A stretch of DNA of 63,867 bases from Jatrophihabitans sp. GTDB lineage: Bacteria; Actinomycetota; Actinomycetes; Mycobacteriales; Jatrophihabitantaceae. The notes beneath the pieces are model-generated. The model was given only the letters and a program-made list of their open reading frames with translations. It was not told the origin of the DNA and made no database searches. The position numbers and the translations under genes were made by a program. Shown in pieces: positions 1,721 to 13,374 of this stretch; position 1 is the first letter of the stretch, and every line of letters begins with the position of its first letter. The DNA lies in contig DASWNX010000042.1 in NCBI GenBank assembly GCA_036399055.1, forward strand, positions 1 through 63,867, given 5' to 3'.

Positions 1721-1788
1721 CGGTTAGCTCGGGCGGTTAGCCGCCCGGCCGGTTAGCTCAGGCGGTTAGCCGCCCGGCCGGTTAGCTC
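1721..1788. repeat. 29-bp tandem repeat (about 2.3 copies) spanning the dapA stop codon
   Basis: The segment CGGTTAGCTC begins at 1721, 1750 and 1779, giving a 29-bp period. On the minus strand each unit carries the end of dapA including its TAA, so the functional stop is in the third copy and two spare copies follow it. Each full unit also holds an inverted repeat GGGCGG-TTAG-CCGCCC (1731-1746) or a shorter form (1761-1774). Confidence 0.85.
1731..1746 (-). terminator. GC-rich hairpin between dapA and ftsK
   Basis: A perfect 6-bp stem, GGGCGG and CCGCCC around a TTAG loop, lies downstream of dapA on the minus strand, with a 5-bp version at 1761-1774. There is no T-tract, so termination is only a possibility. 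Confidence 0.35.
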
Positions 1789-2699
1789 AGGCGGTCCCCG
1801 CCCAGGCCAGCGTCGATGAGGTCCTGGCGCAGATGGCTCAGCTCGTGCTCGGTGGCCTCGACCATCGGCAGCCGGACCGGCCCCGCCGGCCGGCCCAGCA
1901 GCGCCAGACCGGCCTTCACCAGGATCACGCCCTGAGTGCGGAATATGCCGGTGTAGATCGGCAGCACCTGCCGGTACAGCCGCAGCGCCTCGGCCCTGTC
2001 ACCCCGCTCATGGGCGTCGAGCACCTGCTTGGTCACCGCGCCGGAGAAGTGGGTGGAGGTGCCGACCACGCCGACTCCGCCCACCGCCAGCAACGGAAGC
2101 AGCATCGCGTCGTCACCGGCGTAGTAGGCAAGCTCGGTCTCGGCCAGCACCCGGGCCGAGGCCGTCGGCTCGCCGCGGGCGTCCTTGACCGCCACGACCT
2201 GCTCGTGGCGGGCGAGTTCGATGATCGTGTCGCTGGCCAGCTGCACCCCGCTCCGGCCCGGGATGTCATAGAGCATCACCGGCAGGGCGCTGGCGTCGGC
2301 GACCGCCCGGAAGTGCTGCAGCATCCCGGCCTGCGGGGGCCGGGAGTAGTACGGGGTGACCACCAGCAAGCCGTCGGCGCCGGCTTTGGCGGCCTGCTCG
2401 GCCAGCTGGATCGAGTGCACGGTGTCGAAGGTGCCGACACCGGCCACGACGCTGGCCCGGTCACCGACCGCGTCCACCACGGCGGCCAGCAGCTCGGCCT
2501 TCTCACCGTCGGAGGTGGTCGGCGCCTCACCGGTGGTGCCGTTGATCACCAGGCCGTCGTTGTGCTGCTCATCCACCAGATAGCGGGCCAGCTCGCGCGC
2601 CACTTGCAGATCCAGCTCACCGGCGACGGTGAACGGGGTGACCATGGCGGTGAGCAACCGGCCGAACGGGCGGGTGCGATCCTGACTCAACATGCCCAT
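1782..2699 (-). CDS. dapA: 4-hydroxy-tetrahydrodipicolinate synthase
   Basis: Condenses pyruvate with aspartate semialdehyde, the first committed step to diaminopimelate and lysine, in the cytosol. The 305-residue TIM-barrel protein shows the family signatures: GTTGE at residues 54-58, the YYSRPPQAG segment near 117, Tyr144 and Arg149 in LYDIPGRSG, and the Schiff-base Lys172 in VAVKDARGE. Length matches the family. It sits upstream of ftsK in the same direction; in many Actinomycetota a ribonuclease J gene lies between the two, and none is here. The stop codon is embedded in a 29-bp tandem repeat. Confidence 0.97.
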   Translation of the reverse strand: MGMLSQDRTRPFGRLLTAMVTPFTVAGELDLQVARELARYLVDEQHNDGLVINGTTGEAPTTSDGEKAELLAAVVDAVGDRASVVAGVGTFDTVHSIQLAEQAAKAGADGLLVVTPYYSRPPQAGMLQHFRAVADASALPVMLYDIPGRSGVQLASDTIIELARHEQVVAVKDARGEPTASARVLAETELAYYAGDDAMLLPLLAVGGVGVVGTSTHFSGAVTKQVLDAHERGDRAEALRLYRQVLPIYTGIFRTQGVILVKAGLALLGRPAGPVRLPMVEATEHELSHLRQDLIDAGLGGDRLS

Positions 2700-2788
2700 A
2701 CGCTACCGCCGGGTCGGGCAGTACCGGGCGTTAACGCCCATGGTCGACCGGGATCGACAGGGTCGACGGGTCAGACGCCGCCCAGTCC

Positions 2789-3400
2789 TCAGTCAGCGGT
2801 CCAGCCCAGCACCCGGTCGGCCCGCTCCCGGCCGGCGGCGACCGCCTCGGCGTTGCGCTCGTCCGAGCCCAGCACCCAGTCCTCGGCCTCGGCCTCGCTC
2901 TTGCCGAAAGCCACGTGCCGGGCGATCAGGGCGTCCCGGCGGGCTTGGGCAGGCGGGTCGAGGTACCAGACCTGGTCCAGCAGCGGGCGGATCTCAGGCC
3001 ACAGCAACAGGTAATTGCCCTCGGTGACGACCAGCGGCGCTTCTGGCGGCACCGCCACCGCCGCGGCGATGGAGTCCTCGATCGCACGGTCGAACGCAGG
3101 CGCGTAGACGGTTCCCGGCTCGCGGCGCAACCGGTCCAGCAGGGACGCGTAGCCAGCGCGGTCGAAGGTGTCCGGCGCGCCCTTGCGAGCCCGCCGGCCG
3201 GTGCGGCGCAACTCGGCGTCGGCGAGGTGAAAGCCGTCCATGCCCACCAGCACGGCCCGCTGCGGTCCGAGCGCGGCCACCAGCCGCTGCGCCAGCGTGG
3301 ACTTGCCCGCTCCGGGTGGGCCGGTGATGCCGAGGATCTGCCGCCGGCCGGCGTCGCTGAGCCGCCGGGCGTCGTCGAGCAGCTCGGGAAAAGCCGTCAT
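2789..3400 (-). CDS. P-loop nucleoside/sugar kinase family protein (uridine kinase-like)
   Basis: A 203-residue protein of the uridine kinase / pantothenate kinase / YggC-like P-loop superfamily. Visible motifs are Walker A GPPGAGKST at residues 27-35, VGMDGFHLAD near 52-61 where this family holds a catalytic Asp, and TEGNYLLL near 128, typical of the fold. The substrate cannot be read from sequence; annotations range from uridine kinase to a nucleoside/nucleotide or fructose kinase-like enzyme. It is a single gene between dapA (88 bp away) and the divergent Trypco2 locus, and belongs to the accessory block that separates dapA from the dapB cluster. Confidence 0.8.
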   Translation of the reverse strand: MTAFPELLDDARRLSDAGRRQILGITGPPGAGKSTLAQRLVAALGPQRAVLVGMDGFHLADAELRRTGRRARKGAPDTFDRAGYASLLDRLRREPGTVYAPAFDRAIEDSIAAAVAVPPEAPLVVTEGNYLLLWPEIRPLLDQVWYLDPPAQARRDALIARHVAFGKSEAEAEDWVLGSDERNAEAVAAGRERADRVLGWTAD

Positions 3401-3520
3401 CGCCTGCCTCTCTTGCCGCCTAGCCGGGCACAGCTACCTCTTTGCCATGTGCATTGTGATGGACCAACCTGCCGATGGCATGATCAATTCGACGTTACCA
3501 AGGTCGCCTCGGGGGTCATT

Positions 3521-3883
3521 GTGGACATAACGCAGGAGCCAGTTCCGCTGGTCGACTTCATCTCCGCGCTGCGCGATCAACTGCGCGCCGCGCACGCCGA
3601 GCGTGATCCAGCCTTTCCGATTGAGGTCGGGCCGATATCGGTCGAGTTCACCCTGCTGACCCGCCGGGAGGCCGAAGGCCGGGCAGGGGTCAAGTTCTGG
3701 GTGGTCGACGCTGGCGTCAGCGGCAAGCACGCCGCCGAGTCGACCCAGAAGGTGACCATGCAGCTGACTCCGCTGGACCCCGCCGGCGGAAAGCTCAGGG
3801 TCAGTGACCAGGAAGTGCGCCAGAGCGGCTCGCTCCGAAGCGGCCAGGAAACCCAACGCGGCGACCGCGAAGAACGCCGCTGA
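3521..3883 (+). CDS. Trypco2-domain protein (trypsin-co-occurring domain)
   Basis: A 120-residue protein whose N-terminal part (PLVDFISALRDQLRAA, then IEVGPISVEFTLL) fits the trypsin-co-occurring domain 2 family, small proteins encoded beside trypsin-fold proteases in predicted NTP-dependent conflict systems. No enzyme motif is visible; an adaptor or scaffold role is the published prediction for the family, not something seen here. The C-terminus is polar and charged. I chose GTG at 3521, preceded by GGGGG at 3511-3515, because upstream sequence in this frame does not resemble the family. It ends 17 bp before the trypsin-STAND-TPR gene, so the two are very likely one transcription unit. Confidence 0.72.
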   Translation: MDITQEPVPLVDFISALRDQLRAAHAERDPAFPIEVGPISVEFTLLTRREAEGRAGVKFWVVDAGVSGKHAAESTQKVTMQLTPLDPAGGKLRVSDQEVRQSGSLRSGQETQRGDREERR

Positions 3884-3900
3884 GGGCCGGGCGCTGAGTC

Positions 3901-6900
3901 ATGGTGGGTGTGCCGCCCGAGAGGGTGCTGCTGGTCAAGGCGGACCTGCCGGGCGGTGAGAAGGTGTCGGTCGGCTCAGCCACGTTGATCGCCGCCCGGC
4001 TGGTCCTCACGGCCGCTCATGTGGTGTTCGACGAGTCCTCCGGCGCGCCGTTGACCAGCATCGTCGTCGGGCCGCCGGAGGCGCCTCGACTTTTCGAGGC
4101 ACGAGTCTGCTGGCCGGCTGAGCACCGCAGCAGCGCCAGCGCAGCCGATCTGGACGTAGCCCTGCTGGAGATCATCGACCGGGACTGGTCACCGCCTCCG
4201 ATGGGACCGGTGCGATGGGGCCGGCTGACCGGCCGATCCCCCGACGTGCGGTGCGAGGCTACCGGCTTTCCGCGGGTGCAGCGCGAGCCCAACGGTGTCC
4301 GGGAATCCGATCAGATCAGCGCCACCATCAATCCGGCAGGCGGAGTGGTAACCGGACGCCATGATCTGAACATCACCTCCGCTGCGCCGGTGCCCAACGA
4401 CAAGTTTCCATCGCCGTGGTCGGGCTCGTCCGGAGCTGGGGTGTTCTGCGACGGGTTGCTCACCGCGGTCCTGGTGATCGACACCGACGGGTACGGTCAC
4501 GGCCGGCTCACCGCGATCCCGGCCTACCGCTTCATGGCCGACGAAGGGTTCCGCACGCTGCTGATCCAGCACCAGGTGCCCGCTGTGCTGGATTCTGTCG
4601 AACTGGCTCCCTTGCTGACCACGGCCGCCCAGCAGAGCCAGATCCGCCGTCGCCGTCCGGAGCGGACCTCACCGGCGATGCTGTTGCGCGCGGACTACGA
4701 GACCGTCGACTTCTACGGCCGCACCGAGCTGCTCACAGAGCTCGTCGAGTGGTGCACCGACTCCCACGCGGACATTGACGTCCGGCTGATCACCGGGCAG
4801 GGCGGGCTCGGCAAGACCCGGCTGGCCCGCCAACTGGTGACGGCTGTCAACGGCCGGCCCAGCGCCCATGGCCAGCACAGTGCCACCCAGCACGCCGGCC
4901 GAGCCTGGCTCGCCGGTTTCCTCTCCGAACCCACCGCCCAGAACCAGCTGCCGGTTGATCGGCTCGCCGACACGGCCGCGCCGGTGTTGCTCGTCATCGA
5001 CTACGCCGAGACCCGCGCCGCCGAGATCGCTGACCTGCTGCGCCGCTTGTGGGCAGGTGATGGAGCGCCGGTCCGGCTGCTGCTGCTGGCCCGCGCCGCC
5101 GGGGAGTGGTGGGATCAGCTTGCCCGTGACCTGGCCGGCCCTGTCGGCGCCACCGAGCAGCTCGCGCCCCTGGACACCACTGCGACCGCCCGGGCAGCGG
5201 CGTTCGAAACCGCGGTGTCCGCGTTCGCGACCCGCCTTCCCACGCTGCCCACGATCGTTCCTGGCGTGGACTGGGCCGCTCACGCCCAGGCCCTGACCCC
5301 GCCATCTGACCTGGACGATTCGGGCTACGGCAGCCCGCTCACACTTCAGCTGGCGGCCCTGCTCCGTCTGCTGGCCACCGCAGACGCCAACCCACCTGCC
5401 AGTGGGTCACCCGGGAGCGTGGCCGCCGAGCAGGAGCTGATCAGTCGGCACGAGCAGAAGTACTGGGCTGCGACCGCCCCCGCCCGGCTAGGCCTGCACC
5501 GGGATAGCCTCGCCCAGGCGGTCACCGTAGCGACTCTGTGCGGTGCCGCGAGCCGCGATGAGGCGCTGGCGGTGCTCACCCCGCTACCGGGGATGCAGCA
5601 GCGGACCGAGGACGACCGCAAGGCCGTCGCGGACTGGCTAAGCGAGCTCTACCCCGCCGCGTCCGGCCATGAGTGGGGCGGCCTGCAACCCGACCGGATG
5701 GGTGAGCACCTCGTTGCCGACATCCTCAGCCGCCGACCGTCACTGCTCCTCCAACTCATGAACGCAGCTAGTCACGCCCAGCAACACCAGGCGCTGACTG
5801 TGCTCGCTCGAGTCCTTGCCAACCCCACCGTCAGCGACAGCACCAAAGATCAGCTCCATCAGCAGCTGATCGACCTGTTCAGCGGCAGCGACCTCGGCCT
5901 CGCTCTTGCCGGCCTTGCCCTGCAGGTAATCACCGAAACGGCGGAACCGCAGCCGTTGCTCGCCGCAGTCACCACCGCAGCTGACACGTTCGGCCCCCGC
6001 CAGCTCAGTTCTTTCGCCAACCAGATGCCCGACCAGAGTCTCATCCTCGCTGAAGCCGCCGTACACCTGTCCGCAGCCCTCGTCCAGGCACTTCGAAGGC
6101 TTCCAAACAGCGACACCAAGCCTCATTTGTCCTCTGCCTTGAACAACCTCTCCATCCGGCTGGCGGATCTGGGCCGCCGCGAAGAGGCCCTGATCGCGAT
6201 CACCGAAGCCACCGACCACTACCGCGCCCTGGCCACCGCCCAGCCCGAGGCGTTCACCTCTGACCTCGCCACCTCGCTGAACAATCTGTCCAATCGGTTG
6301 GCCGATCTGGGCCGCCGCGAGGAGGCCCTTACCACGATCAACGAAGCCGTCCGGCTGCGCCGCGCCCTAGCCGACGCCCAGCCCGACGCGTTCACCCCCG
6401 AGCTCGCCACCTCGCTGAACAACCTGTCCAATCGGTTGGCCGATCTGGGCCGCCGCGAGGAGGCCTTGACGGCGATCACCGAAGCTGTTCAGCTGCGCCG
6501 CGCCCTGGCCACCGCCCAGCCCGAGGCGTTCACCCCCGACCTGGCCGGGTCGCTGAACAACATGTCCATCCGGCTGGCCGACCTGGGCCGCCGCGAGAAG
6601 GCCCTCGCCGCGATCACCGAAGCCGTCCAGCTGCGCCGGGCACTAGCCACCGCCCGACCCGACTCGTTCACCCCCGACCTCGCCACGTCACTGAACAACC
6701 TGTCCAATCGGCTGGCCGCCTTGGGCCGCCGCGAGGAGGCCCTCGCCGCGATCACCGAAGCCGTCCAGCTGCGTCGGGCACTAGCCGCCGCCCAGCCCGA
6801 GGCGTTCACCCCCAACCTCGCCGCCTCACTGAACAACCTCTCCAACGGGCTCGCCGGCCTGGGCCGCCACGAGGAAGCCCTGGCCGCGATCACCGAAGCC

Positions 6901-7908
6901 GTCCAGCTGCGCCGCGCCCTGGCTGCCGCCCGGCCCGACGCGTTCACCGCCGACCTGGCCATGTCGCTGAACAACCTCACCGGCGGGCTGGCCGACCTGG
7001 GCCGCCACGAGGAAGCCCTGACCGCCATCACCGAAGCCACCGACCTCTCCCGCGCCCTGGCCGCCGCCCGGCCCGAGGCGTTCGCCCCCGACCTGGCTGG
7101 GTCGCTGAACAACCTGTCCAACGAGCTGGCCGACCTGGGCCGCCACGAGGAAGCCCTGACTACGATCACCGAAGCCACCGACCTCTACCGCGCCCTGGCC
7201 GCCGCCCGGCCCGAGGTGTTCACCCCCGACCTGGCCAGGTCGCTGAACAACCTGTCCAACGGGCTCGCCGACCTGGGCCGCCACGAGGAGGCCCTGACCG
7301 TGATCACTGAGGCCGTCCAGCTGCGCCGCGCCCTGGCCGCCGCCCGACCCGAGGCGTTCACCCCCGACCTGGCCAGGTCGCTGAACAACCTGTCCAATCG
7401 GCTGGCCGATCTGGGCCGCCGCGAGGAGGCCCTGACCGCGATCATCGAAGCCACCGACCTCTACCGCGCCCTGGCCACCGTCCGGCCCGACGCGTTTACC
7501 TCTGACCTAGCCACCTCGCTGAACAACCTGTCCAACGGGCTGGCCGCATTGGGCCACCGCGAGGAGGCTCTGACCGCCATCACCGAAGCCGTCCAGCTGC
7601 GCCGCGCCCTAGCCGACGCCCAGCCCGACGCGTTCACCCCCGACCTCGCTCAGAGTCTCGTTAGACTCGGCATCTACCTGTCAGCGCTATCTCAACACGT
7701 AGCCGCCAGAGATGCCGACGAGGAAGCAGCCACGTTGTACGTGCGGTTGGCGGCGGAGTTGGACCACTTTGAGGAAGCAGCCACTCGGGCGTTGAAGAAC
7801 CTAGCTATCGACCTTCGCGAGCTTGGTATGCCGCCCGACGAGATCACGAAGTACCTGGAACGGGTCATCCGAGACGCTGGCGACGGGCCGAGAAGGTCAG
7901 CCGGCTAG
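3901..7908 (+). CDS. Trypsin-like protease / STAND NTPase / TPR-repeat fusion protein
   Basis: A 1335-residue multidomain protein. Residues about 8-215 form a trypsin-fold serine protease: His40 in LTAAH, probable Asp85 in DLDVALLE, Ser177 in GSSGAG. Residues about 265-450 are a STAND-type NTPase with YGRTELL just before, Walker A GQGGLGKT at 299-306 and Walker B LLVIDYAE at 363-370. An alpha-helical middle leads to eleven TPR-like units of exactly 46 residues (747-1252), then a degenerate unit. No signal peptide or membrane segment, so it is cytosolic. The architecture (sensor repeats, NTP switch, protease effector) and the adjacent Trypco2 gene suggest a biological-conflict or programmed-response protein; that role is inference. 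The stop overlaps the convergent ycaQ-like stop by four bases. Confidence 0.88.
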   Translation: MVGVPPERVLLVKADLPGGEKVSVGSATLIAARLVLTAAHVVFDESSGAPLTSIVVGPPEAPRLFEARVCWPAEHRSSASAADLDVALLEIIDRDWSPPPMGPVRWGRLTGRSPDVRCEATGFPRVQREPNGVRESDQISATINPAGGVVTGRHDLNITSAAPVPNDKFPSPWSGSSGAGVFCDGLLTAVLVIDTDGYGHGRLTAIPAYRFMADEGFRTLLIQHQVPAVLDSVELAPLLTTAAQQSQIRRRRPERTSPAMLLRADYETVDFYGRTELLTELVEWCTDSHADIDVRLITGQGGLGKTRLARQLVTAVNGRPSAHGQHSATQHAGRAWLAGFLSEPTAQNQLPVDRLADTAAPVLLVIDYAETRAAEIADLLRRLWAGDGAPVRLLLLARAAGEWWDQLARDLAGPVGATEQLAPLDTTATARAAAFETAVSAFATRLPTLPTIVPGVDWAAHAQALTPPSDLDDSGYGSPLTLQLAALLRLLATADANPPASGSPGSVAAEQELISRHEQKYWAATAPARLGLHRDSLAQAVTVATLCGAASRDEALAVLTPLPGMQQRTEDDRKAVADWLSELYPAASGHEWGGLQPDRMGEHLVADILSRRPSLLLQLMNAASHAQQHQALTVLARVLANPTVSDSTKDQLHQQLIDLFSGSDLGLALAGLALQVITETAEPQPLLAAVTTAADTFGPRQLSSFANQMPDQSLILAEAAVHLSAALVQALRRLPNSDTKPHLSSALNNLSIRLADLGRREEALIAITEATDHYRALATAQPEAFTSDLATSLNNLSNRLADLGRREEALTTINEAVRLRRALADAQPDAFTPELATSLNNLSNRLADLGRREEALTAITEAVQLRRALATAQPEAFTPDLAGSLNNMSIRLADLGRREKALAAITEAVQLRRALATARPDSFTPDLATSLNNLSNRLAALGRREEALAAITEAVQLRRALAAAQPEAFTPNLAASLNNLSNGLAGLGRHEEALAAITEAVQLRRALAAARPDAFTADLAMSLNNLTGGLADLGRHEEALTAITEATDLSRALAAARPEAFAPDLAGSLNNLSNELADLGRHEEALTTITEATDLYRALAAARPEVFTPDLARSLNNLSNGLADLGRHEEALTVITEAVQLRRALAAARPEAFTPDLARSLNNLSNRLADLGRREEALTAIIEATDLYRALATVRPDAFTSDLATSLNNLSNGLAALGHREEALTAITEAVQLRRALADAQPDAFTPDLAQSLVRLGIYLSALSQHVAARDADEEAATLYVRLAAELDHFEEAATRALKNLAIDLRELGMPPDEITKYLERVIRDAGDGPRRSAG
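6139..7656 (+). repeat. Eleven tandem 138-bp units encoding 46-residue TPR-like repeats
   Basis: Units start at 6139, 6277, 6415, 6553, 6691, 6829, 6967, 7105, 7243, 7381 and 7519, with no length variation. Each encodes LNNLSN.LADLGR.EEAL followed by a second helix ending F(T/A).(D/E)LA.S. DNA similarity between units is high, including silent positions, implying recent copying or gene conversion. Confidence 0.95.
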
Positions 7909-9149
7909 CCGACCGTGGCGCTTAACGCGGCCGCCAGCGCCGGCGCCAGGTCGCCCGGGCCGGTGACCTGCACGCCGTCGAGCCCGAGCCAGGCCGCCAG
8001 CTCGGCCAGCTCCGCGGCCAGCTCGACGGCGACCTCATCGTGCTTGACGTCGGGCTCGCCCCAGGCCGACTGGACCCTGAGCACGCCGGCCTGCCGGTCG
8101 GCCTTGAGGTCCACCCGGCCCACCAGAGACTCGCCGAGCAGGAACGGCAGCACGTAATAGCCGTGCACCCGCTGCGCGGCCGGGGTGTAGATCTCGATCC
8201 GGTAGTGGAAGCCGAACAGCCTCTTGGCCCGGTCCCGGAACCAGATCAGCGGGTCGAACGGGCTGAGCAGCGCCCTGGCCCGCACCTGGCGGGGCCGGCG
8301 CGCCGCCGGCCACAGGTAGCCGGGGGCGTTCCAGCCCGCGACCGTCACCGGCAGCAGCTCACCGGCCTCGACGAGTTCGGCGACCCGCAGCTTCGACTCG
8401 GCCCGGGGCAGCCGGAAGTAGTCGCCCAGGTCCGGCTCGGTGGCCACGCCGTAGGCCCGGGCGGCGATCCTGACCAGCTCCCGCTGGGCGTCGGCCCGAG
8501 CCGGCGTCGGCTGGCTGTGAATGTGCGCCGGCAACACCCGCTCGATGAGGTCGTACTGCCGTTCGAAGTTCACCCGGCGGGCCGCGCCCACCTCGCCCGC
8601 CCAGAACAGGTATTCCAGGGCCACCTTGCCGTCGTTCCAGTTCCACATCTGACCCGGCGTGCGCGGCCGGCGCTCCTGCGTCACGTCGGCGCTGCGGATC
8701 GGCCCCCGCTCGGCGATCAGCCGGCGGATCTCGTCCAGCAGCTGCGGCTGCTCCTTGGCGATCCGCTGCATACCGCCCCAGGACTCGTCGTGGGCCCGCG
8801 CCATCCGCCAGCGCAACAGCGGGTGGGTGGCCAGTGGGATCAGCGACGCCTCGTGCGCCCAGTACTCGACGTACTCACGCTGCAACCGGCCGGCGGTGTG
8901 CCCGGTCAGCCGGTCCAGGATCTCGCGAGGGTAGGGCCCGAGCCGGGCGAACACCGGCAGGTAGTGCGACCGGGACAGCACGTTGACCGAGTCCAGCTGC
9001 AACAGCCCCATGGTGTCGACCACCTTGCGGATGTGCCGGGCGGTGACCGCCCCGGCAGGCCGCGGTGAGCCGAAGCCCTGGGCCGCCAGGGCGATCCGCC
9101 GCGCCGCCGCGGCGGACAGGTCAGCTGAGGGCATGCCCCATTTGACCAT
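7905..9149 (-). CDS. YcaQ/AlkX-family winged-helix DNA glycosylase
   Basis: A 414-residue protein of the HTH_42 winged-helix family whose characterised members (E. coli YcaQ/AlkX, Streptomyces AlkZ) excise alkylated bases or unhook interstrand crosslinks. The catalytic QxD motif is present as Gln51-Leu-Asp53 in GLLQLDSVNVLSRSHYLP; other family segments are EYWAHEASLIP, the LSPFDPLIWFRDRAKRLF block and HGYYVLPFLLGE near the C-terminus. I used ATG at 9149; ATG at 9134 is also in frame, and the longer open frame up to 9377 has no family resemblance. It is divergent from the acetyltransferase at 9214 and convergent with the STAND gene. Substrate is unknown; DNA repair or self-resistance are both plausible. 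Confidence 0.86.
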   Translation of the reverse strand: MVKWGMPSADLSAAAARRIALAAQGFGSPRPAGAVTARHIRKVVDTMGLLQLDSVNVLSRSHYLPVFARLGPYPREILDRLTGHTAGRLQREYVEYWAHEASLIPLATHPLLRWRMARAHDESWGGMQRIAKEQPQLLDEIRRLIAERGPIRSADVTQERRPRTPGQMWNWNDGKVALEYLFWAGEVGAARRVNFERQYDLIERVLPAHIHSQPTPARADAQRELVRIAARAYGVATEPDLGDYFRLPRAESKLRVAELVEAGELLPVTVAGWNAPGYLWPAARRPRQVRARALLSPFDPLIWFRDRAKRLFGFHYRIEIYTPAAQRVHGYYVLPFLLGESLVGRVDLKADRQAGVLRVQSAWGEPDVKHDEVAVELAAELAELAAWLGLDGVQVTGPGDLAPALAAALSATVG

Positions 9150-9213
9150 GTCGGTCTGACAGCGGCTTGGCCACGCCGACCGGCGTAGGACCGAGTCGCC
9201 TAGGCTGTCTGGC

Positions 9214-9768
9214 GTGGCAGATGTGAGTGTTCGGCCGGCAAGCGCGGACGACGTGGCCGACCTGGCCCGGATCCAGCTCGACACCTGGCGGCTGGCGTAC
9301 CAGACAGTGCTGCCCGCCGAGATCCTGCAGGCGCTGAGCGTCGAGGACGTCGCGGCCAGTTGGCACGCCGCGATCACCGCGCCGCCGTCGTTGAGTCACC
9401 ACGTGCTGGTGGCGATGGAAGGTGAGTCCCGGGTCGGCTTCACCGCCTTCGGCCCGGACGCCGACCGCCAGCCACAGGACCCCGACCCCGACACGACCGC
9501 CGCGATCAGCATGCTGCTGGTCGAGCCGCGCTGGGGCCGGCGCGGGCACGGCTCACGGCTGCTGGCGGCGGTGGCCGACACCGCGCGGGCGGCCGGCGCC
9601 AGCCGGCTGGTGGCCTGGGTGCCGGTGGCCGACGCCGTCTCGCTGCAGTTCTACCGCTCAGCCGGCTGGGAGGCCGACGGCCTGCGGCGCGATCTGGACA
9701 CCGGCGCCGGCTCGGTCACCGAACTGCGGCTGCACGCCTCGCTTGCTGAGGCAGAAGAGACGCCCTGA
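9214..9768 (+). CDS. GNAT-family N-acetyltransferase
   Basis: A 184-residue acetyl-CoA-dependent acyltransferase. It begins with the usual beta-strand VSVRPASADDVADLARI and carries the acetyl-CoA pyrophosphate-binding loop as RWGRRGHGSRLL, followed by LVAWVPVADAVSLQFYRSAGWEADG, the classic FYxxxGF/W region. The acceptor substrate cannot be inferred. It starts with GTG at 9214, 64 bp from the divergent YcaQ-like gene, and its TGA overlaps the next ATG by one base (ATGA-type junction at 9768), so it is co-translated with the DUF2461 gene. Confidence 0.9.
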   Translation: MADVSVRPASADDVADLARIQLDTWRLAYQTVLPAEILQALSVEDVAASWHAAITAPPSLSHHVLVAMEGESRVGFTAFGPDADRQPQDPDPDTTAAISMLLVEPRWGRRGHGSRLLAAVADTARAAGASRLVAWVPVADAVSLQFYRSAGWEADGLRRDLDTGAGSVTELRLHASLAEAEETP

Positions 9769-10424
9769 TGAGCTTCGACGGGATCTCCTTCGCCGCGCTG
9801 GACTTCTACGAAGACCTCGAGGCTGACAACTCCAAGTCGTTCTGGACGGCGCACCGCCAGGTCTATGACGAGCAGGTCAAGGCGCCGCTGCAGGAGCTGG
9901 CCGCCGAGCTGGGTCCGGAGTTCGGCACGGCCAAGTTCTTCCGGCCGTTTCGCGACGTCCGGTTCTCCAAGGACAAGACGCCGTACAAGACCCACCAGGG
10001 CGTCTACTTCGCCGAGTCCCGGCGCTACCTGCAGGTCTCGGCGGCGGGCCTGTACGCCAGCGGCGGCTTCTACGACATGGCCTCTGACCAGCTGTCCCGC
10101 TACCGCCGGGCGGTCGCCGAGGAGCTGCCGGGCCAGGCGCTGACGCAGGTGATCGCCCTCGCCGAGAAGGCCCGGCTGGTGATCAACGGCGAGCAGCTGA
10201 GCCGGATTCCGAGCGGTTACCCCAAGGACCACCCGCGCCAGGACCTGCTGCGGCGCAAGTCGATCTACGCCACCCGCGAGTTCGGCTCCCCGGACTGGCT
10301 GCGGACCCCGCGCGTGAAGGCCGAGGTGGTCAAGGCCTGGCGCGCGATGCAGCCGCTGATCGACTGGCTGGAGAAGAACGTCGGCCAGTCCGACATCCCC
10401 GTGGTGCGCCGCGGCGAGCGCTAG
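9768..10424 (+). CDS. DUF2461 domain-containing protein
   Basis: A 218-residue protein of the DUF2461 family (TIGR02453-like), recognised by the N-terminal FYEDLEADNSKSFWTAHR, then RFSKDKTPYKTHQGVYF and AGGFYDM-like segments (here ASGGFYDMASDQLSRYR). Proteins of this family are cytosolic, near 220 residues, and have no assigned biochemical function. It overlaps the acetyltransferase stop by one base. The last 16 bases including TAG are repeated 35 bp downstream at 10444-10459. Confidence 0.9.
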   Translation: MSFDGISFAALDFYEDLEADNSKSFWTAHRQVYDEQVKAPLQELAAELGPEFGTAKFFRPFRDVRFSKDKTPYKTHQGVYFAESRRYLQVSAAGLYASGGFYDMASDQLSRYRRAVAEELPGQALTQVIALAEKARLVINGEQLSRIPSGYPKDHPRQDLLRRKSIYATREFGSPDWLRTPRVKAEVVKAWRAMQPLIDWLEKNVGQSDIPVVRRGER

Positions 10425-10459
10425 GCAGCCGCGCAATCCCACACCGCGGCGAGCGCTAG
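10409..10459 (+). repeat. 16-bp direct repeat containing the DUF2461 stop codon
   Basis: CCGCGGCGAGCGCTAG occurs exactly at 10409-10424 and again at 10444-10459; the first copy encodes the last residues and stop of the DUF2461 gene. Partial similarity (GCAGCCG / CGAGCCG) continues beyond both copies. Confidence 0.8.
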
Positions 10460-10524
10460 CGAGCCGCTGTCAGGGCGTGAGGAGGTCCCACGATGCGGGG
10501 GCATCCGCATTACCCTCCGGTCGT

Positions 10525-10802
10525 GTGAGCGACGACCTTGAGCGAGAACTCGCCGCTGCGGCCGCGGCGTTGAACGAGCGGCATCAGGCGACGGGAATCG
10601 AGGTCCTGGTCGAGCGGCGCTGGCGCGGTGTCCTGCGCGCGCACGGACTGTGCGCCTACGACCTCTGGACTGACGTCTTCGAACCGGTGCGTCAAAGGTG
10701 GGCGTGGAGTCGCCGATGGCGTTGCTGTCAAGCGCCGGAGGACGCTGCTCGCAAGATCGACTGGTTCCTGACGCACCGGCCGGATCTGCCGCCCGGCGCT
10801 GG

Positions 10803-10806
<4 letters not shown>
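10525..10806 (+). CDS. Small hypothetical protein (93 aa)
   Basis: I do not recognise this protein. From GTG at 10525 it is 93 residues: an N-terminal amphipathic stretch SDDLERELAAAAAALNERHQATGIEVLVERRWRGVLR, then a Trp- and Arg-rich middle and AARKIDWFLTHRPDLPPG at the end. There is no signal peptide or membrane segment. Base composition is like its neighbours. It follows the DUF2461 gene by 100 bp on the same strand, and its TAG shares four bases (CTAG, 10803-10806) with the stop of the convergent TPR gene. A genuine coding region is likely from the regular composition but not proven. Confidence 0.55.

Positions 10807-13374
<2,568 letters not shown>

Follow-up and report, generated by a model that had tools for sequence, protein, structure and literature searches.

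The window (the whole stretch of DNA analysed, 63,867 nucleotides of a Jatrophihabitans sp. contig, DASWNX010000042.1) carries a cassette of two genes (Table 1), both of whose reading frames are intact across 1,455 codons. The product of gene 1 matches the Pfam domain Trypco2 (PF19631; E 3.6e-22) through residues 8-84, which cover the full domain (1-78), and it is the sole Trypco2 match within the genome. Gene 2 starts 17 bp past the stop of gene 1 and its product joins a trypsin-like protease, a STAND NTPase module and an array of TPR units on one chain. The profile match confirms the Trypco2-like protein described upstream of gene 2 in the first-pass annotation, and the presence of the Walker A and B motifs and of the 46-aa units does the same for the 1335-aa chain with eleven TPR units.

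Table 1. Features of the two-gene cassette, in window coordinates.
Feature	Position	Strand	Remarks
Inserted two-gene cassette	3414..7901	.	Approximate ends, by comparison with empty sites in two congeners
Trypco2 protein gene (gene 1)	3521..3883	+	120 aa, GTG start; PF19631 78.9 bits (cut-off 24.2)
Arg18 codon of Trypco2	3572..3574	+	Invariant in 58/58 aligned and in 74/74 rows with an adjacent trypsin gene; rows not phylogenetically independent
Trypsin-STAND-TPR protein gene (gene 2)	3901..7908	+	1335 aa
S1 (trypsin-like) protease domain, residues 4-213	3910..4539	+	PADLOC LmuA and Avs1b matches on this segment
His40 codon (predicted catalytic)	4018..4020	+	Invariant 58/58
Asp85 codon (predicted catalytic)	4153..4155	+	Invariant 58/58
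Ser177 codon (predicted catalytic)	4429..4431	+	Invariant 58/58
STAND NTPase module, residues 256-583	4666..5649	+	Weak Pfam nSTAND_NTPase5
Walker A, GQGGLGKT, residues 299-306	4795..4818	+	K305/T306 invariant 19/19
Walker B region, LLVIDYAE, residues 363-370	4987..5010	+	D367 invariant 19/19
Eleven complete 46-aa TPR units	6130..7647	+	Pfam TPR_10/TPR_12
Degenerate twelfth TPR unit	7648..7779	+	44-aa stretch shown

An accessory cassette among ordinary genes

The cassette is a clean insertion of approximately 4.5 kb, with a kinase gene on one side and alkZ on the other. In alignments with cassette-free congener sites, the distance between the 5' end of the kinase gene and the 3' end of alkZ is only about 90 bp (L103) or about 55 bp (L096). 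The seven neighbour ORFs that were scanned, from 1782 to 12037, encode dapA, the kinase, alkZ, a GNAT protein, a DUF2461 protein, a TPR membrane-type protein and dapB; neither MoxR nor vWA is represented among these seven, and the annotated neighbours in the window are ordinary genes that include no defence gene. The order dapA, alkZ, GNAT, DUF2461, dapB is kept without the cassette in all four congener loci of sufficient length (L104-L107), so only the two genes are accessory, and the earlier view of an accessory block that splits dapA from dapB is wrong. That the locus itself is accessory, as had been claimed, holds well: within the set of relatives compared, Trypco2 is found in one of nine genomes of the genus and in 1/24 of the family; it is found in 33/397 of the order, and two congeners have empty sites. 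Constant vertical inheritance with housekeeping partners is ruled out by the same empty sites and by the absence of Trypco2 from all eight congeners.

The protease and its Trypco2 partner

The trypsin match begins at residue 4 of the gene 2 product and reaches 24.5 bits with Trypsin_2 (E 5e-5), below the Pfam cut-off of 27.6. Some relatives lie above this cut-off (L147, 38.8; L128, 40.9; L211, 40.0; L221, 50.8 bits) and others below it (L209, 21.7; L212, 22.9; L192, 20.0 bits). The assignment rests on the relatives that pass and on the invariance of His40, Asp85, Ser177 and Gly178 in 58/58 aligned trypsin domains, in which the triad appears in order with GxSG. The intact triad described at first is consistent with this conservation, and the domain is predicted to be catalytic. 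A specificity for basic P1 residues, deduced from an Asp near position 194, was dropped, given that this Asp is found in just 33 of the 58. In PADLOC, gene 2 gave weak matches on the protease segment only (LmuA, 23.6 bits; Avs1b, 12.8 bits) and gene 1 gave none; no PADLOC model covers the pair.

In the Trypco2 domain (of approximately 78 residues), Arg18 is the only fully invariant residue, and hydrophobic residues occupy most of the other conserved positions, E42 and T75 being exceptions; the domain consequently bears no enzyme signature. Both the length and the sequence of its C-terminal tail differ among the relatives compared, and no conserved cleavage site was seen there. The AlphaFold model is weak (pLDDT 66.5), and a search by sequence found no solved structural relative of this domain of unknown function. 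At one locus (L168) a Trypco2 domain and the protease form an in-frame fusion, in a gene that looks degraded; since the frame past the protease looks wrong, this natural fusion counts only as weak evidence.

Trypco2 occurs at 30 of the 37 loci with a trypsin domain vs none of 43 trypsin-free STAND loci, and with broader profiles at 30/38 vs 0/42, the loci not being phylogenetically independent. Its divergence tracks that of the trypsin domain more closely than that of the STAND module (partial r 0.56 vs 0.21, n = 38, from distances that are not phylogenetically independent; bootstrap interval of the difference, 0.08-0.54). The pairing extends to different bodies, given that all seven matches with E <1e-20, of the 12 Trypco2 matches in 398 genomes of the phylum of genome G777, adjoin a trypsin gene, and that one copy on a Methylosinus plasmid sits with trypsin and MoxR. 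It is strong although not absolute, because 8/38 trypsin loci have no Trypco2 detectable with the broader profiles and because no trypsin gene lies near 8/33 of the order's Trypco2 loci; eight of the Trypco2 rows without trypsin come from one genus. By association, Trypco2 belongs to the protease as its dedicated partner, and not to the switch.

STAND module, TPR array and distribution

The STAND module matches nSTAND_NTPase5 weakly (23.3 bits, cut-off 34). Related STAND bodies carry other N-termini, among them a TIR head (L135), a GT4-conflict head (L145) and an HTH (L139). The idea that the effector head can be exchanged finds only partial support, because four of the eight trypsin-free N-termini scanned gave no family and because the N-terminus of most trypsin-free STAND proteins is short, with no long head. 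The proteins with TIR and GT4-conflict heads share with the cassette a related STAND module (they were found by tblastn with the cassette's own) and, in most cases, TPRs, whereas their effector head is different and Trypco2 is absent from all 43 trypsin-free loci.

Among 22 trypsin-STAND-TPR chains with at least three countable units, the number of TPRs ranges from 3 to 17. Between the units of gene 2, mean dN is 0.157 vs a dS of 0.317. The identities of STAND modules and TPR arrays are nearly uncoupled (rho 0.09 over 1,128 pairs, which are not phylogenetically independent). Exchange of arrays was tested by DNA comparison with heads and arrays taken apart: in one cluster a TPR array shows 86.8% identity over 2,191 bp between systems that have only 31-34% protein identity in their switches. 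In a separate comparison the longest match of heads was 188 bp. Sensing repeats thus appear, from these comparisons, to be traded between related systems. Another STAND-TPR gene of the source genome (L084) is apparently broken, with overlapping frames at 4918-5829 and 5660-7741 in the coordinates of that locus.

The architecture of Trypco2 followed by trypsin-STAND-TPR recurs; it is common in Actinomycetota and, in the scans made, concentrated there. Relatives were found by a scan with the trypsin-STAND alignment; a scan with the whole 1335-aa protein returned none, probably because the patterns were drawn from stretches peculiar to that protein. Relatives of gene 1 lie on 23 plasmid records, and none was found among 50,697 phage records. 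No family of flanking ORFs that could represent a third partner is common to more than 4 of 35 loci.

Proposed function and rival explanations

Trypco2-trypsin pairs have been described in the VMAP/MoxR-vWA ternary conflict systems (Kaur et al., 2020; PMC7159879). The likeness lies in a Trypco2 gene beside an N-terminal trypsin within a predicted intracellular conflict system; the cassette, however, consists of two genes, its trypsin heads a STAND-TPR chain, and its annotated neighbours include no MoxR or vWA. In AVAST type 1 and the nuclease-protease pairs (PMC12799240), a defence protein also has an N-terminal trypsin-like domain and an upstream partner gene, but this partner is an MBL-fold nuclease, where the cassette has Trypco2 and no conserved third gene was found. 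The work on CARD-NLR/LypABC of Caulobacter (PMC13236601) reports that the protease serines of LypA and LypC are required for lysis, and describes how a trypsin-like protease works jointly with an NLR-like ATPase that has TPR-like repeats; that system has three genes, a CARD and a protease-nuclease, whereas the cassette has one chain with nothing before the protease, plus Trypco2. The Trypco literature found is sparse and, in the parts available, places the domain with VMAP/MoxR systems or near diversity-generating retroelements rather than with trypsin-STAND-TPR. To this extent the chain is under-described, as had been suggested; that description does not fit a chain common in Actinomycetota whose first gene is already labelled 'trypco2 family protein' in plasmid records. 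The general reading as a conflict system gains support from the 23 plasmid records and from the related STAND-TPR bodies with predicted TIR or GT4-conflict heads.

The cassette is most likely a self-contained two-gene NLR-like switch acting against phages, plasmids or other invaders, a reading to which a probability of about 0.68 may be given. It looks like the bacterial equivalent of an animal or plant immune receptor, with sensing repeats, a switch, a built-in protease and a small dedicated partner. STAND NTPases exchange nucleotide and oligomerise when triggered by a ligand. The C-terminal TPR array would bind the trigger, upon which the STAND module, if it follows this established behaviour, would exchange nucleotide and the protein would oligomerise. 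The oligomer would bring together or free the N-terminal S1 protease, whose activity is suggested by its conserved catalytic residues and which would cut intracellular proteins, leading to growth arrest or death. Trypco2 would most likely keep the protease safe or correctly positioned through the helix that carries Arg18. Recognition could change fast, because TPR units may expand and homogenise within the gene and whole arrays may pass between neighbouring systems whose heads differ, as the DNA comparison shows for one cluster and as is suggested for the window.

Another way of looking at the pair is to consider Trypco2 as a substrate or pro-effector that would be cleaved by the switched-on protease and would then act, by analogy with Hachiman/AVAST nuclease-protease pairs. 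The lack of any other gene conserved as a substrate (at most 4 of 35 loci share a family) and the weak likeness of the protease segment to LmuA and Avs1b speak for it; it is nevertheless unlikely, given a domain without enzyme signature whose sole fully invariant residue is Arg18, a variable tail in which no conserved cleavage site was seen, and the in-frame fusion at L168, even if that gene looks degraded. The concentration in Actinomycetota in the scans made, together with window neighbours annotated without defence genes, would suit a regulator with a housekeeping or developmental role, such as a proteolytic switch that acts while filamentous actinobacteria develop their morphology. Housekeeping genes do not typically show patchy presence, empty sites, carriage on plasmids, array exchange or tandem multiplication, and with 8/8 congeners devoid of Trypco2 such a role seems quite improbable. 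That the cassette has decayed or is a neutral passenger, persisting as an inactive remnant, might be suspected from the apparently broken L084 gene of the same genome, but the intact frames, the retained triad residues and Walker motifs and the dN/dS contrast between TPR units leave this with very little probability.

To return to the NLR-like switch, a broader and more tentative proposal, for which the odds are somewhat short of even, is that it belongs to a family in which TPR arrays expand, homogenise and swap as DNA cassettes, while each protease head has its own Trypco safety catch. The swaps would take place between Trypco1-type and Trypco2-type heads, in tandem clusters and across families, in a manner comparable to plant NLR clusters, and the Trypco2 catch would centre on the one invariant arginine. 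The cassette itself has three separable parts: a protease head and its dedicated partner, a switch akin to those of other heads, and an independently moving sensor array. Array exchange, if true, would be a natural route to altered recognition by a bacterial immune receptor; a cluster in which different heads bear near-identical arrays would provide a ready-made experiment, and Arg18 is a concrete handle on what the Trypco2 domain does. Tandem multiplication of systems was seen, and at L059 a longer stretch showed that the first STAND-TPR gene has a divergent trypsin, and it also showed a Trypco1 gene.

Organization of the two-gene cassette

Profile matches and alignments bear out the first-pass reading of the two genes, a Trypco2 gene followed by a trypsin-STAND-TPR gene. 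The upstream gene gives the expected Trypco2 match, which spans the whole profile at 78.9 bits, and is the sole Trypco2 match in its genome; the downstream gene starts 17 bp past it. The protease and STAND domains of the downstream gene were assigned by means of alignments, because Pfam scores both of them under the respective cut-offs (24.5 against 27.6 bits and 23.3 against 34 bits).

Features of the cassette and of its immediate flanks
Feature	Window position	Residues or units
Kinase gene, upstream of the cassette	2789-3400
Trypco2 gene	3521-3883
Trypsin-STAND-TPR gene	3901-7908
S1 protease domain of that gene		residues 4-213
STAND module of that gene		residues 256-583
TPR array of that gene		eleven 46-residue units and a degenerate twelfth
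alkZ, downstream of the cassette	7905 onward

The catalytic triad proposed earlier is intact: His40, Asp85 and Ser177 are invariant in 58/58 aligned trypsin domains that adjoin a Trypco2 gene (59 Trypco2-trypsin pairs minus one duplicate locus), and K305, T306 and D367 of the STAND module are invariant in 19/19 aligned trypsin-STAND proteins. The usual Kyte-Doolittle threshold for a membrane segment is about 1.6, and 19-residue means along both proteins revealed no clear segment; the highest value in Trypco2 is 0.76, and the peak of the larger protein (1.65, residue 24) lies inside the protease domain, just N-terminal to His40. The protease is likely to be intracellular.

Trypco1 and Trypco2 were named beside the trypsins of VMAP systems (Kaur et al., 2020; PMC7159879), and later papers term Trypco2 an adapter near diversity-generating retroelements (2024; PMC10907252) and describe conflict systems that combine trypsins, TPRs and STAND NTPases in other ways (2021; PMC8195603). 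The trypsin-STAND-TPR pair was not found described in the portions searched of the literature on Trypco, trypsin-co-occurring domains and STAND/TPR/defence; supplementary tables, which lay outside the search, may list it. Two new points, an arginine of Trypco2 (Arg18) and the exchange of arrays, can be tested.

Pairing of Trypco2 with the protease

The order-wide search gave 37 Trypco2 rows, and besides the window 35 were fetched with flanks, representing 33 loci. A trypsin gene lies near Trypco2 at 25/33 (24 by the first profile, L071 by a broader one), and none was found near it at eight (L054, L058, L074, L078-L081 and L083). At L067 and L069, both within the 25, Trypco2 and the trypsin-STAND gene are convergent and not operonic.

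A scan of genome contigs with seven trypsin-STAND proteins returned at least 592 stretches, among which 89 encode a relative. Among the best 80 of these 89 (45 titled Streptomyces, seven non-Actinomycetota by title), Trypco2 occurs at 30/37 trypsin-bearing loci versus 0/43 STAND loci without trypsin, or 30/38 versus 0/42 with broader profiles; the Fisher values (1.2e-15 and 5.5e-15, respectively) serve only to describe the strength of the association, since the loci are not phylogenetically independent. Among the eight trypsin loci without Trypco2 in this set, L123 is a contig end and L142 a frameshifted gene, the L174 trypsin is detected by the broader profile only, and a further one is L128. 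The remaining four (L147, L149, L153 and L154) encode Streptomyces proteins headed by a trypsin, for which neither a Trypco2 nor a STAND-profile match beside the trypsin was detected; L147, the one scanned with Pfam, is a trypsin-NACHT protein with a weak HEAT match.

The pairing extends to the phylum of genome G777 (Roseiarcus, Pseudomonadota), where 12 of 398 genomes match Trypco2. All seven matches with E < 1e-20 adjoin a trypsin gene (Pfam Trypsin_2 over the cut-off in one of the three scanned), and no trypsin was found near L216 and L217, the two examined of the five weaker matches (L206-L208 are the other three). Trypco2 also lies with a trypsin gene and MoxR, the published ternary type, on a Methylosinus plasmid. 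Trypco2 relatives were found on 23 plasmid records, and none in the 50,697 phage records searched. In three of the five plasmid neighbourhoods opened, a gene named trypsin-like peptidase lies directly downstream of Trypco2; in the fourth (L192) our profiles find trypsin, STAND and TPR in an annotated TPR protein, and the fifth (L223), which matches the TPR region of the window at the DNA level, has an unnamed 1,244-codon gene. The trypsin-STAND-TPR gene with Trypco2 is thus a genuine variant, belonging to a known class and found repeatedly.

Across the 38 loci at which all three parts are present, the distances between Trypco2 sequences correlate with those of trypsin at r 0.83 versus 0.75 for STAND; as partial correlations the values are 0.56 and 0.21, with a bootstrap interval of 0.08-0.54 for their difference. 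Judged by these distances, Trypco2 belongs with the protease. Arg18 is invariant in 58/58 aligned Trypco2 sequences; those included in two further alignments share only 21-44% identity with that of the window. Arginine occupies this position in 74/74 rows in which a trypsin gene lies no more than 1.5 kb away (two or more of these rows being one locus fetched twice), versus seven Arg, five Lys and one Gln in the 13 rows without one; as eight of these 13 represent five loci of a single genus, the contrast is suggestive and not strong. An AlphaFold model of Trypco2 (31 sequences, mean pLDDT 66.5) predicts a single long helix (10-27) containing residue 18, followed by three strands. In five genomes of one genus (L078-L081, L083), divergent Trypco2-like domains have no trypsin gene nearby; at least three of these genomes carry the domain twice, and the first copy has Lys or Gln in place of Arg18. 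In Actinacidiphila oryziradicis (L168 5695-6744) Trypco2 and a trypsin domain are fused in frame; the frame past the protease looks wrong, and the gene may be degraded.

Insertion of the cassette and probable exchange of TPR arrays

Trypco2 was found in five of the 61 genomes searched as relatives (the window's and four others), in 33/397 genomes of the order and in 5/396 of the phylum sample. The accessory nature proposed for the cassette is supported by the absence of Trypco2 from 8/8 congeners and by two empty sites; within the relatives set Trypco2 is also absent from all 15 other genomes of the family. In the two congeners whose dapA is most similar, the kinase gene and alkZ nearly abut (gaps of about 90 and 55 bp by alignment), so that the cassette can be read as a clean insertion spanning roughly 3414-7901 of the window. 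The site comparison covered the congeners with a dapA match; two congeners gave none. At four further congener loci dapA, alkZ, GNAT, DUF2461 and dapB keep their order without the cassette, and therefore the notion that an accessory block splits dapA from dapB does not hold; these four have no kinase-gene match and carry other sequence between dapA and alkZ. No integrase or transposase is present among the annotated genes at the junctions, and the GC content of the cassette (about 69-70%) is slightly under that of most of its flanks.

The TPR units of the window are about 76-79% identical to one another over 44 aligned positions, and 22 trypsin-STAND-TPR chains have between 3 and 17 units each (a further 12, in which our profile counts fewer than three, are not included). 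STAND and TPR identities are nearly uncoupled (rho 0.09; 48 proteins with at least four units, 1,128 non-independent pairs), and since part of this could arise if TPR units converge on a shared consensus, arrays were compared at the DNA level. Over 1,519 bp the window array shares 78.3% identity with one of G189, a genome of another family; the best-scoring match of the window's trypsin-STAND DNA outside its own locus covers 150 bp (74%), and the longest among the ten listed 188 bp.

G189 has four tandem trypsin-STAND-TPR genes (L221 6342-12001, L059 3971-16639) with closely similar TPR DNA and different heads (N-terminal domains). The first is accompanied by Trypco1 (PF19493, 47.1 bits, cut-off 24.6) and the other three by Trypco2. 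Over 2,191 bp the array of the Trypco1-type gene shares 86.8% identity with that of one Trypco2-type gene, above the values of this Trypco2-type gene against its siblings (81-85% for the arrays, 75-76% for the heads). Between the two types the STAND parts share 31-34% protein identity, the trypsin parts give no BLAST alignment, and DNA matches of the N-terminal modules do not exceed 154 bp. The simplest reading of these comparisons is that TPR arrays were exchanged or converted between the Trypco1 and Trypco2 subtypes.

Proposed mechanism and changing heads

Beyond the observed parts, their conserved residues, the association of Trypco2 with the protease, the accessory nature of the cassette and the array exchange seen in one cluster, the most likely mechanism is one in which the TPR array would bind a trigger, the STAND switch would exchange nucleotide and then assemble, and the protease would be set upon cell proteins, with Trypco2 presumably holding it safe, by inhibition, or correctly placed. 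A precedent for a trypsin-like protease acting together with an NLR-like ATPase with TPR-like repeats is Caulobacter LypABC, in which lysis is reported to depend on the serines of the LypA and LypC proteases (PMC13236601). The main rival is that Trypco2 may be a cleaved partner of the protease, since in the nuclease-protease pairs described in one published account the upstream gene is a pro-enzyme (PMC12799240).

The system seems to consist of these two genes and no others. Flanking ORFs of at least 100 aa were compared at 35 Trypco2 and trypsin-STAND loci, several of which end near the pair (e.g., L053, L056 and L118); no family is common to more than four loci, the largest clusters resemble GC-rich frames of doubtful reality, and neither a dedicated nuclease nor another effector was found to accompany the pair. 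Pfam searches of eight trypsin-free N-termini gave three matches over the cut-off, namely TIR (L135, 33.6 bits), GT4-conflict (L145, 273 bits) and HTH (L139), a transglutaminase-like match below it (L160), and no match for the other four. More than 140 residues precede the STAND match at just 17/43 trypsin-free loci (best 80 of 89 relatives), so many of these proteins have no long head. An effector-switch-sensor design with a common body and a changing head is thereby partially supported, as is, by analogy, the conflict role put forward in the first-pass annotation. The window's genome has a second STAND-TPR gene (L084 4918-7741), apparently broken into two overlapping frames, whose N-terminus is hydrophobic and not a protease.
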